A DNA stretch of 64,000 bases from an uncultured Rubrobacteraceae bacterium (lineage in GTDB: Bacteria > Actinomycetota > Rubrobacteria > Rubrobacterales > Rubrobacteraceae), in NCBI GenBank assembly GCA_902806095.1, contig CADCVF010000057.1:1-64000 (forward strand), read 5' to 3'. Under the pieces are notes generated by a model that was not told the origin of the DNA, did not search any database, and worked only from the letters and a program-made list of their open reading frames with translations. Position 1 is the stretch's first letter. Each line of letters starts with the position of its first letter. A program made the translations under genes and the position numbers. This document shows positions 27,116-31,979 of the stretch, one piece after another.

Positions 27116-27335
27116 TCAGCACGCTCGGGCCTTTGGCCTTCGCTTGTCAGCACGCCGCCTCCCTCCGATCGGCGGCTCTCAGCACTTCAGCAACTCCTCT
27201 GAGGAAGCCACCACGAGCATCAAACCCAACGGTCGCGGGCAGCGGTTCTTCGTGCGCAGCCGGGCGAGGCCGGAACGGGAGAAGCTTACATGCTGACGAG
27301 CGAGGGCCTGAAAGGCCGGAAGCGTGCTGACTAGC
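27112..27335. repeat. Dispersed TCAGCA-type repeat, copy 2
   Basis: It fills the gap between the converging dtd and ABC-F genes. It begins GCTAGTCAGCACG at 27111 and ends, inverted, with CGTGCTGACTAGC at 27335, so both neighbours obtain TAG stops from it. Inside are GTCAGCACG and CTCAGCACTTCAGC units alternating with hairpins such as GGGCCTTTGGCC, CGCCGCCT...CGGCGGC and GGCCTGAAAGGCC. Confidence 0.8.
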
Positions 27336-28974
27336 TGCCGTAGGCAGCGTGCTGAAACGCTGTTCTTCGCCAGTCGCTGTAGCCTCCTGTGTGGCGGTGC
27401 ACTTCGCCTTCGCTGACTTCGACTATGCCGTCGGCGATACGGTCGAGGAAGTAGCGGTCGTGCGAGACGAAGATCACTGTGCCGGGGAACCGTTCGAGTT
27501 CGGCTTCGAGGATCTCCAGCGAGTCTATGTCGAGGTGGTTTGTCGGCTCATCGAGGACGAGGCAGTTCGGTTCTCGTAGCATGATCAGGAGCAGTTGTAG
27601 CCGGGTGCGCTCTCCTCCGCTCAGTGATGTCACAGGCGCCCTGACCTGCTCGTAGCGGAACAGGAATCGCCCGAGCAACTTCACGGCCTCGCCCTCGTAC
27701 ATTGGCCTGGCGTCCCTCACGAGCCCTAGCGGTGAGGCGCCGGGTGGCGGTTCGTCGTTCTGGGCGAGGTAACCGATGTCTATAGATGGGCCTGCCCAGC
27801 GCTCGCCTTCCGTCGGGGGGATGACGCCGGCGAGGAGCTTCGCGAGCACGCTCTTGCCAGCGCCGTTCGGCCCGATTATCCCGAGGCGCTCGCCGCGCGA
27901 GACGGTAAGATCTACTCCAATGAGGACCGGAAATTCGTCGAAGGCAACACCTACGTCCTGGAGTTCGATCACCTTCCTGCCACCCCTTACCCTGCCGCGG
28001 AGCTCCAGCCCTATCTTGCGCCGCTCCAGCACGGGGCGTTCGACCTTGTCCATGCGGTCGATCTGGCGCTGTTTGTTGCGGGCCTGCTTGATGTGACGTT
28101 CGAATACGACCATGCTGGCCCAGAGCTTGAAGCGCCGGATCGCCTCTTCGAGTCGCGCTATCTCCTTCTGCTGCGAGACGTAGAGTTGCTGCTGTCGTTT
28201 GAGCTTGAGTTCACGCGCCACGGTATAAGCCGAATAGTTGCCTGGCCAGGATATGATCCTCCCGTTTTCGAGCTCGGCGATCTCCTCCACCGTCTCGTCG
28301 AGCATGTAGCGGTCGTGGGAGACGATGACGACGGCACCATCGAACGTGCGGACGATCGCCTCCAAGAGCTCCCTGCGCCCGGCGTCGAGGTGGGCTTCTG
28401 GTTCGTCGAGGAGCAAGACGTTTGGACACCCCGCCAGACAGGAAGCCAGGACTGCCAGTTTGCGCTGCCCGCCGCTAAGATCCCTCATAGGACGATCGAT
28501 GTCGCCGTCACCAAGACCAAGCGACCCCAGGTAGCCGCGTGACTCGCCCTCGAAGCCTGGCCCGCCGAGCTCCGTGAAGCGGCGAAAGAGCCTCTCCTGA
28601 CGCTCGAGCACCCGCTGCATCCGGCGCAGGTCGGCCGTCACCCCTGGCGAGCCGAGCTGTTCCTCGCAGACTCGAAGCTCCCCCTGGAGCTCCGAGATCT
28701 CGGGCCGCGCCGCGCGTACGACCTCCATCGGCGTGCGCGCATCACCCTCGACATACTGGGGCAAAGATGCGACGCTCAGACCGCGGCGCCGGATCACCTC
28801 CCCCCCATCGACATCCTCCGTTCCTGCGAGGATGCGAAGCACTGTGGACTTGCCAGCGCCATTTGCACCGACGAGCCCGATCCTCGCCCCCGCGTTCACG
28901 TTCATAGACAAATCCCGCAGCACGGCCCGGCCTCCGTAGAACTTCTCTACGGAACTCAATCCGATGAGGGTCAT
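27331..28974 (-). CDS. ABC-F family ATPase (duplicated ABC domains)
   Basis: A 547-residue soluble protein with two ABC domains. The first has Walker A GANGAGKST and signature LSGGQRKL with DEP-E-AHLD in place of the usual DEPTNHLD. The second has GPNGAGKSV, LSGGERTRLQ and DEPTNHLDID. A linker rich in R, K and Q (about residues 235-320) is the P-site tRNA-interaction motif of ABC-F translation factors. No membrane domain is present. The start ATG 28974 has GGAGG at perfect spacing. The C-terminal residues FQHAAYGS and the stop come from the adjoining dispersed repeat. It could be a translation factor or an antibiotic-resistance protein; sequence alone does not decide. Confidence 0.9.
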   Translation of the reverse strand: MTLIGLSSVEKFYGGRAVLRDLSMNVNAGARIGLVGANGAGKSTVLRILAGTEDVDGGEVIRRRGLSVASLPQYVEGDARTPMEVVRAARPEISELQGELRVCEEQLGSPGVTADLRRMQRVLERQERLFRRFTELGGPGFEGESRGYLGSLGLGDGDIDRPMRDLSGGQRKLAVLASCLAGCPNVLLLDEPEAHLDAGRRELLEAIVRTFDGAVVIVSHDRYMLDETVEEIAELENGRIISWPGNYSAYTVARELKLKRQQQLYVSQQKEIARLEEAIRRFKLWASMVVFERHIKQARNKQRQIDRMDKVERPVLERRKIGLELRGRVRGGRKVIELQDVGVAFDEFPVLIGVDLTVSRGERLGIIGPNGAGKSVLAKLLAGVIPPTEGERWAGPSIDIGYLAQNDEPPPGASPLGLVRDARPMYEGEAVKLLGRFLFRYEQVRAPVTSLSGGERTRLQLLLIMLREPNCLVLDEPTNHLDIDSLEILEAELERFPGTVIFVSHDRYFLDRIADGIVEVSEGEVHRHTGGYSDWRRTAFQHAAYGS

Positions 28975-29073
28975 GCGATCCTCCACGCTTTGGCACGACA
29001 TAGGTTTCTCATCGGACTAATGATGATACCCGTACGGAACCGGCGCATCCCCCATTTGGGTGATCTTCGAGAA

Positions 29074-29868
29074 CTAAGCACTCTGCACCAGACCTTCGAT
29101 GTACACGGTCGCAGGACGTGTGTAGCCCTCGCCCAGAATCCGGGTGCGCATGGCATCGAGGCTTTCGCGTATTCGCCGCGCTGTCGCCGGCGGCAGCGAG
29201 GACAACTCTGTAGGTTCGTCTTCGGCCAGGACCAGCTTTCCGAGGTGACGGATTCGTTGTGGTGGAAATACTTGCCACCGCAGGTTCGTGAGAAGCTCAT
29301 TGTGTAAGCCCACGAGACCTTCTGGCGCCCCGATCCCGTAGGGCTGGCTTGCGTAAGCCTCACGTCTCAACTCCGCCTCCAGCCTCTCGTCTTCGAGCTG
29401 GACTGCTTCCTCGGAATCGACGAAGTCGCCCGTCGCCACCCTACCGCCGGGTCGAGCCACAGAGCAAAGCGCTGCGAGCGCATCTTCCGCCGTCCTCTCC
29501 TTTACGTCCAGCTCGTGGAAGAGGCCGGAGGAGTAGACGAGGTCGAAGGTTCCCGAGGCGAACGACAACCCGAAGACGTCTCCTGCGAGAATAAGGACTG
29601 GGGCTACGAATCCCGCCTCGCCAATAGAAGCTTGCGTCTCATCGACACGTTCAGCGTCCATGTCGATTGCGGTGACGCTACCGCCTTCTCCTATCCGCTG
29701 GCTGAGGCCCTCGATCCAGAGCGGTGAGGAGCCTCCTGCGTAGAGTACGTCGAGGTCCCTGATGTTCCCGAGCAGGTCGAGCTCGCGGTCGCAGAAGGCG
29801 ATGAGGTCGTCTTCGAGCTCCTCTCGCTCTCCCGGCGTCAGGGGGTCACCTTTGTATAATCTCTGCAT
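29074..29868 (-). CDS. Class I SAM-dependent methyltransferase
   Basis: A 264-residue protein. The SAM-binding Rossmann motifs are LDVLYAGGSSPLWIEGLSQR (degenerate motif I), VTAIDMDAERVDET (acidic loop) and FDLVYSSGLFHELD (motif IV). Typical VARPGGRVATGDFVD comes next. Substrate unknown. The ATG at 29868 shares two bases with the oppositely directed ATG of the second ABC-F gene (both lie in CATG), so there is no 5' untranslated region on either side in the DNA. Longer starts would run through the ABC-F coding sequence. Confidence 0.82.
   Translation of the reverse strand: MQRLYKGDPLTPGEREELEDDLIAFCDRELDLLGNIRDLDVLYAGGSSPLWIEGLSQRIGEGGSVTAIDMDAERVDETQASIGEAGFVAPVLILAGDVFGLSFASGTFDLVYSSGLFHELDVKERTAEDALAALCSVARPGGRVATGDFVDSEEAVQLEDERLEAELRREAYASQPYGIGAPEGLVGLHNELLTNLRWQVFPPQRIRHLGKLVLAEDEPTELSSLPPATARRIRESLDAMRTRILGEGYTRPATVYIEGLVQSA
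29855..29860 (+). promoter_or_regulatory. -10 box of the second ABC-F gene, inside the methyltransferase CDS
   Basis: A perfect TATAAT, 6 bases before the ATG at 29867, so transcription should start at or next to the first base of the codon. It lies within the coding sequence of the divergent methyltransferase. Confidence 0.65.
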
Positions 29869-31765
29869 GAAGGTAATTGTCGCAAGTGACATCGTAAAGT
29901 ACCATGGTGGAGACCTGAAGGTCCTCTCTGGCGCGACGCTCTCGGTGGAGGCCGGGGAGAAGATCGGGCTCGTCGGACGCAACGGCGCTGGGAAGACGAC
30001 CCTCCTCGATATACTGGCCGGACACTCGGAACCCGACTCGGGCTCGGTCGAGCATCCTGGCGGCGCGAAGGTCGGGATGACGGCCCAAAAACTCTACGCC
30101 GGAGAACGGGGCGCCCTCTCTCTGCAACAAGAGATCATCTCCGCCTTCGAGCCCCTGATGGCCCGCGAGAGGCAGTTGGAGGAGCTTGGTACACGTCTCT
30201 CCGAGGACCCCTCGAACGCCCTCATGGAACGATATGGCAAGTTTCAGAGCGAGTTCGAGCGGGACGGCGGCTACGAGTACCGCGCGCGGGCGGCCTCGAC
30301 CATCTCTTCACTTGGGTTCGCCCCCGAGGACTGGAAGCGTCCCGTGGGCTCTTTCTCGGGCGGAGAGCAGGGCCGCATCGCCCTGGCCAGATTGCTTATG
30401 GAGGAGCCTGACCTCATCCTCCTCGACGAGCCGACCAACCACCTCGATCTGCGCGCCATAGAGTGGCTCGAGAGCTTCGTCAAGGGGGCGAGGAGCGCCG
30501 TCATCGTCGTCTCCCACGACCGCTACTTCCTCGACGCCGTCGCCGGTTCGATGCTGGAGCTCGAGGATGGCCGTTTGACCCGCTACCCAGGCAACTACAG
30601 CAAGTACGTGGCCGAGAAACGGGCCCGCGAGGAGCAACTCGCCCGCAAAGCGAAGGCCAACGCCGAACGCAGGGCGCAACTCGAACGATTCGTCGAGAAA
30701 AACAGGGCTAAGGCGAGTAAGGCCAGCCAGGCCAGGAGCAAGCAGAAGCTCCTCGACAGTATGGAGAAGATAGAGGATCCGAGGAGATCATCGAAGAACG
30801 TAAGGCTCGACCTCGGCGGGCAGACCGCGCGGGCCGGGCGCGTCGTGCTCGAGATGGAGAACGTGCGCTACGCCCACGAGGACGCCGACGAGCCGCTCCT
30901 GGAAGGCCTGGACCTCGTTATCGAGCGCGGGGAGAGGGTTGCCTTGCTCGGTCCCAACGGGACAGGGAAGAGCACGATCATGCGCCTCGCTACAGGAGAA
31001 CTCTCTCCCCAGAGAGGCATGGTCAGGCCAGGCAACAACGTAAGGCTCGCCTACCAGGACCAGCAGTTAGCCCGCCTCGACGACTCCAAGACCGTCCTTG
31101 GGGAGGCGATGGACGCGACGGGGTTCGACGCCCCCGAGGCCCGCGACCTTCTCGGCGCCTTCCTGTTCTCCGGCGACGACGTCTTCAAGAGAGTGAGATC
31201 TCTCTCCGGCGGCGAGAGGAACCGTCTGAGCCTGGCCGAGATAGTAGTGAGCGGTGCGAACCTCCTGCTGCTCGACGAGCCTACCAACAACCTCGACATC
31301 CCTGCCCGCGAGGCCCTGGAAGATTCGCTGCTCGAGTACAGCGGCACGATGTTTTTCATCTCCCACGACCGCTACTTCCTGCGCAAGCTGGCGACCAGGG
31401 TCGTGGACCTTGAAGGCAGGAAGCTTAGGAACTACCTCGGTGGCTACGACTACTACCGTTCCCACCTCAGGCTGGACGAGGACTCGAAAGGCAGAAAGGG
31501 CCGCCAGCGCCAGCGCGTCAGGCCGGGCCAGAGCAAAGAGCAGAACATCCTTGCCACCCGCCTCGTCGCTGTAGAGGGTGAGATCGACGCCACCGAGCGC
31601 CGCGTGGCCAGCCTCGAAAAGGAGCTGGCCACCTCAGAGCTCTACTCCGACGATAAACGCTCCCGCGAAGTCTTCACCGAACACCGCCAACTGAAGAGCA
31701 CACTGGACGGCTTGTACGCCGATTGGGGACAGCTACTCGAAGAAGCGGAAGAAACAGGACTTTGA
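29867..31765 (+). CDS. ABC-F family ATPase (Uup/EttA-like)
   Basis: A 632-residue ABC-F protein. The first ABC domain has GLVGRNGAGKTTLLDILAGH, FSGGEQGRIALARLL and DEPTNHLDLRAIEWL; the second has GPNGTGKSTIMRL, LSGGERNRLSLAEIV and DEPTNNLDIPA. The interdomain linker (about residues 235-320) is K/R-rich. After the second domain comes a basic segment and a C-terminal coiled coil (VEGEIDATERRVASLEKELA), as in Uup-type members. It probably acts on the ribosome. The mRNA is apparently leaderless. With the ABC-F at 27331-28974 this makes two paralogues within 5 kb. Confidence 0.92.
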   Translation: MKVIVASDIVKYHGGDLKVLSGATLSVEAGEKIGLVGRNGAGKTTLLDILAGHSEPDSGSVEHPGGAKVGMTAQKLYAGERGALSLQQEIISAFEPLMARERQLEELGTRLSEDPSNALMERYGKFQSEFERDGGYEYRARAASTISSLGFAPEDWKRPVGSFSGGEQGRIALARLLMEEPDLILLDEPTNHLDLRAIEWLESFVKGARSAVIVVSHDRYFLDAVAGSMLELEDGRLTRYPGNYSKYVAEKRAREEQLARKAKANAERRAQLERFVEKNRAKASKASQARSKQKLLDSMEKIEDPRRSSKNVRLDLGGQTARAGRVVLEMENVRYAHEDADEPLLEGLDLVIERGERVALLGPNGTGKSTIMRLATGELSPQRGMVRPGNNVRLAYQDQQLARLDDSKTVLGEAMDATGFDAPEARDLLGAFLFSGDDVFKRVRSLSGGERNRLSLAEIVVSGANLLLLDEPTNNLDIPAREALEDSLLEYSGTMFFISHDRYFLRKLATRVVDLEGRKLRNYLGGYDYYRSHLRLDEDSKGRKGRQRQRVRPGQSKEQNILATRLVAVEGEIDATERRVASLEKELATSELYSDDKRSREVFTEHRQLKSTLDGLYADWGQLLEEAEETGL

Positions 31766-31905
31766 AGGCTTCAGGCAACAAGCTTTCCGCAGCCTACCTT
31801 CACCAGGCTCTCTAATCTCAGAGCAGAATCTCACGTTTCCTCGGACGTGTACGAACGTTTCTGGATACCAGAGTCTGGTAGCAAAACGCCTGGAACCTGC
31901 AAGAG

Positions 31906-31979
31906 TCGGGACGAGAGGATTTGAACCTCCGACCTCCTCGTCCCGAACGAGGCGCGCTACCAGGCTGCGCTACGTCCCG
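31906..31979 (-). tRNA. tRNA-Pro (anticodon CGG)
   Basis: A 74-base cloverleaf: acceptor CGGGACG/CGTCCCG, D-arm GCGC...GCGC, anticodon stem CCTCG/CGAGG with loop TTCGGGA, and T-arm GGAGG-TTCAAAT-CCTCT, discriminator A. The anticodon CGG reads CCG. CCA is not encoded. Confidence 0.93.

Follow-up and report, generated by a model that had tools for sequence, protein, structure and literature searches.

Actinobacteria have many leaderless genes (PMC3160421, PMC3898074), and in both Actinobacteria and Deinococcus-Thermus a TANNNT motif precedes the start codons of such genes by about 12 bp (PMC3160421, PMC3898074, PMC12340547). Closely juxtaposed divergent promoters and leaderless pairs are known from Mycobacterium tuberculosis; an example is prpD/Rv1129c, both genes of which were classified as leaderless by mapping of transcription start sites (PMC3898074). 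In bidirectional promoters of Escherichia coli, competition arises only when one direction is strongly active, and there is little of it at basal strength (PMC12825309). Divergent overlaps make up about 1% of annotated overlaps among well-characterized genes (PMC2478687). They are under-represented, and the explanation offered for their avoidance is that each gene depends on signals upstream of its start (PMC2174442).

The locus described here lies in a window of 64,000 nucleotides, the whole stretch of Rubrobacteraceae DNA that was analyzed. Its plus strand from 29855 to 29869 reads TATAATCTCTGCATG (TATAAT CTCTG CATG), and the terminal CATG (29866 to 29869), read on both strands, holds the start codons of two divergent genes. 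The ATG of the ABC-F ATPase ABC-F1 occupies 29867 to 29869 on the plus strand, and that of a class I SAM-dependent methyltransferase occupies 29868 to 29866 on the minus strand. Positions 29867 and 29868 are common to both, which is the two-base overlap that the original prediction had described. We consider it likely, judging from the sequence motifs, that the junction consists of two face-to-face leaderless promoters, each embedded in the coding sequence of the other gene, with start sites that coincide on the CATG. A polymerase arriving from the left would use TATAAT (29855 to 29860) and start the ABC-F1 mRNA at the ATG or within a few nucleotides of it, whereas one arriving from the right would use TGC-GACAAT (29884 to 29876, minus strand) and initiate methyltransferase mRNA at that gene's ATG. 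The first codons of either gene would contain the -10 box of the other, and each elongating polymerase would pass over the other promoter. The two boxes are the outermost elements, 15 bp apart, and flank a single start region.

ABC-F1 (29867 to 31765, plus strand) encodes 632 amino acids up to position 31762, with a stop codon ending at 31765, and comprises two ABC domains, a linker, and a C-terminal domain. It scored 434.8 bits against the ribosomal protection-like family NF000355.4, above the curated cutoff of 380, and its nearest solved PDB chains are YheS and EttA. The methyltransferase (29074 to 29868, minus strand) has 264 amino acids ending at 29077, followed by a stop codon at 29076 to 29074. 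It matches the domains PF13649 (E value, 5e-10) and PF08241 (E value, 5e-9), and its strong matches were confined to its own bacterial family among the genomes searched. Its closest public relative, from a Rubrobacteraceae bacterium, is 87% identical, and a search of a wider collection returned one locus, which agreed with G008 in sequence identity. A PDB sequence search with the methyltransferase gave weak generic matches only. A predicted structure of this protein was discarded, as it had a pLDDT of 36 and derived from an alignment of two sequences. A second ABC-F gene, ABC-F2 (27331 to 28974, minus strand), follows downstream of the methyltransferase in the same orientation; its start is probably at 28974, after a GGAGGA site, the listed start at 29001 being less likely. 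A tRNA-Pro (cgg) gene is located just downstream of ABC-F1 (31905 to 31979, minus strand), and a tRNA was the sole Rfam match around the junction.

Relatives were sampled from one family (39 genomes, 13 genera), and the junction was located in 31 ABC-F orthologues. Conservation of the CATG had been proposed as a check on the original prediction, and normal intergenic spacing in relatives as evidence against it. A single CATG holds both start codons in 17 Rubrobacteraceae genomes from seven genera (g1, g2, g3, g6, g8, g9, and g12), for which the objection from normal spacing fails; in the other 14 relatives, the genes are unlinked or stand tens to hundreds of bases apart. On the ABC-F protein tree, the overlap requires seven changes, at least four of them on supported branches. 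With about 14 relatives lacking it, whether through loss or from the outset, the overlap is not obligatory, and the case for an obligate regulatory link between the two genes is weakened by these spaced or unlinked pairs. In two relatives from different genera (L004 and L078), the regions upstream of the unlinked methyltransferase genes have sequence in common, including a TATACT box at a distance of about 100 nt. Separation may thus itself be a shared or transferred trait. Five genomes (L062, L063, L067, L073, and L074) have an ABC-F gene that does not lie at a CATG junction but is preceded by a reading frame of 26 to 28 codons. This frame begins 7 nt behind a TAGAAT box and ends in a stop codon that overlaps the start of ABC-F in an ATGA, as in MEVYLASNSSFELRGDVVSFSKLGISSA; judging by sequence, it may encode a leader peptide that is itself leaderless and is coupled to ABC-F.

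The predicted -10 box of ABC-F1, TATAAT at 29855 to 29860 on the plus strand, falls within methyltransferase codons 3 to 5 (AGA TTA TAC) and is perfect in all 17 overlap genomes. It precedes the ABC-F ATG by 6 nt in the window and by 9 to 10 nt in the other 16 overlap genomes (9 nt in most, 10 nt in g9), placing it at the 6 to 10 nt from the start codon that characterize leaderless genes. In most overlap genomes, the methyltransferase has one codon more than that of the window, and with the wider spacing of 9 nt (10 nt in g9), the mRNA of these relatives may have a leader of a few nucleotides. TATAAT-to-ATG distances in the host genome have their mode at 6 nt (14 of 88 matches at spacings of 0 to 30); by this measure of sequence, the window's spacing lies at the genome-wide peak, as expected for leaderless genes. 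Across the 39 family genomes, the pattern TATAATN5-10CATGAA was much more common than its reversed-pattern control.

The codons that contain this box are constrained as well. The TTA embedded in TATAAT is present in 15 of the 15 genomes sharing the frame and forms the rarest invariant column of the methyltransferase gene, TTA representing 1.7% of leucine codons, and the codon preceding it always ends in A. In g9, the same TATAAT is read in a different methyltransferase frame and codes for II instead of LY; it is therefore the DNA, not the protein, that is conserved. Perfection of the box appears to go with ABC-F linkage: in three of three genomes whose methyltransferase has no adjacent ABC-F, it is imperfect (TATAAC in G002 and G052, TATGAT in G007), and in spaced pairs whose ABC-F has retained it, the box stays with ABC-F (G017, 280 nt; G023, 60 nt). 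No recognizable -35 element was found on either side of the junction, and the site was missed by a consensus promoter scan, which requires a -35 element too. The prediction of an ABC-F -10 box within the methyltransferase was thus borne out by conservation at the DNA level and by leaderless spacing, and this half of the architecture, a putative ABC-F1 promoter within methyltransferase codons, is well supported.

On the opposite strand, the candidate extended -10 element TGC GACAAT (29876 to 29884, minus strand) lies 7 nt before the methyltransferase ATG and is formed by ABC-F codons 4 to 6 (ATT GTC GCA). Across relatives, the motif occurs as TGC-GACAAT or TGC-TATAAG at the same distance. It was intact in 17 of 17 overlap genomes but in 8 of 14 others (Fisher's exact test, P = 0.004, with relatedness ignored). 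Among 501 ABC-F columns, no fully invariant codons are rarer than codons 4 and 6. These data are suggestive of a methyltransferase promoter inside ABC-F. Of the original claim that each promoter lies in the coding sequence of the other gene, the ABC-F side therefore stands, and the methyltransferase side is suggestive, with a motif intact in every overlap genome and a paired test that did not reach significance.

The most serious alternative, which we nevertheless regard as unlikely, is that the junction promoter serves ABC-F1 only. The methyltransferase would then be transcribed from a promoter deeper within ABC-F1, or with a leader; its mRNA would be antisense to the 5' end of ABC-F1, and the AT-rich ABC-F codons 4 to 6 would serve translation initiation. 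The minus-strand -10 element matches the consensus at 4 to 5 of 6 positions, most genomes having just 4. Rarity of codons 4 and 6 extends to nonoverlap genomes, although these codons are less uniform there, and when relatedness was controlled, the difference in motif retention was not significant (four pairs on supported branches). Against this alternative, codons 4 to 6 are fully invariant in the overlap genomes, and the two alternative codon states, ATT GTC and CTT ATA, both preserve, 7 nt from the ATG, a hexamer that resembles a -10 box and is preceded by TGN.

Given the size of its footprint, two RNA polymerases at the junction must overlap, and therefore only one at a time would occupy the site. 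This mutual exclusion would follow from the geometry of two opposed promoters. Since competition in the E. coli bidirectional promoters needs one strongly active direction (PMC12825309), exclusion at the CATG may or may not matter. The original prediction had also proposed antisense transcripts; this part is unsupported, because the leaderless transcripts would run apart from the CATG and share about two nucleotides. A stronger interpretation is that the junction has been selected as a protein-free either/or toggle across the family, in which each cell would express either ABC-F1 or the methyltransferase, possibly together with ABC-F2. In its favor, the two polymerases could not occupy the junction simultaneously and each transcript would cross the other promoter; if true, a toggle between two translation-related ATPases would have been retained across a bacterial family. 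We regard this as improbable. In our view, the arrangement of face-to-face promoters is chiefly a matter of compactness that can be tolerated because leaderless genes require little beyond a -10 box, and competition would be a side effect.

It is very unlikely that a single symmetric -10 box drives both genes, as in a bidirectional promoter in the sense of PMC12825309. The starts of both genes do lie within a few bases of each other and the site is partly symmetric, but the starts are located between two -10 boxes rather than flanking or falling within a single shared box. Read backward, TATAAT would start RNA to the left of the box, inside the methyltransferase and past its ATG, yielding no full protein. 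A symmetric double TATAAT (TATAATN3-9CATGN3-9ATTATA) was absent from the 39 family genomes. In one relative whose genes are apart (L021, G024), TAGGAT on the minus strand has two bases in common with TATAAT and precedes the probable start of the methyltransferase by 9 nt; the layout there is back-to-back, as opposed to face-to-face at the CATG.

Annotation of the start codons was also considered. The open reading frame list extends both frames further upstream (methyltransferase, TTG at 29982; ABC-F, ATG at 29762), but the starts retained in relatives are those at the CATG: every one of the 17 overlap genomes has a methyltransferase frame that begins there, and alignments with ABC-F homologues start with residue 1, encoded by the plus-strand ATG of the CATG. 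A methyltransferase start further downstream, which would have contradicted the original prediction, finds no candidate in the window, where the stretch from the CATG to the conserved DPLT motif contains no in-frame ATG, GTG, or TTG codon. Database entries with long divergent overlaps usually reflect wrong starts (PMC2478687), but with an overlap of just 2 bases and both ATGs kept in 17 genomes, an artefact in which the true start of one gene lies elsewhere is very improbable. The two genes form a divergent pair with overlapping 5' coding sequences and conserved starts on both sides.

Such junctions appear to be scarce. Among 69 divergent pairs called by a simple gene caller in 400 kb of the congener G006, most of them tens to hundreds of bases apart, the CATG junction was the only credible overlap of start codons, and searches of an open-access library turned up no description of a CATG shared by divergent leaderless genes. 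Leaderless expression shows here how tightly genes can be packed: a promoter of one hexamer can fit within the opening codons of a gene that runs the other way, and those codons are then constrained family-wide. Relatives in which the pair is linked or unlinked offer a natural test of interference between opposed promoters at the same site.

Compared with known systems, the junction resembles TANNNT leaderless genes in having a -10 box at leaderless spacing and no recognizable -35 element; it differs in that the box lies in the codons of a divergent gene and the start codons overlap. Like prpD and Rv1129c, which are both leaderless by transcription start site mapping, the two genes are divergent neighbors, but start codons that share bases and -10 boxes within the opposite gene are features for which no statement was found in PMC3898074. 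As in bidirectional promoters with a shared symmetric -10 box (PMC12825309), binding of one polymerase should exclude the other, although here two separate boxes face inward and the starts coincide in the middle. The head-to-head overlap of coding sequences is shared with short divergent overlaps (PMC2478687, PMC2174442); unlike those, the CATG overlap comprises two bases only, is kept over several genera, and is accompanied by promoter evidence. The CATG junction is a rare variant of known compact promoters.
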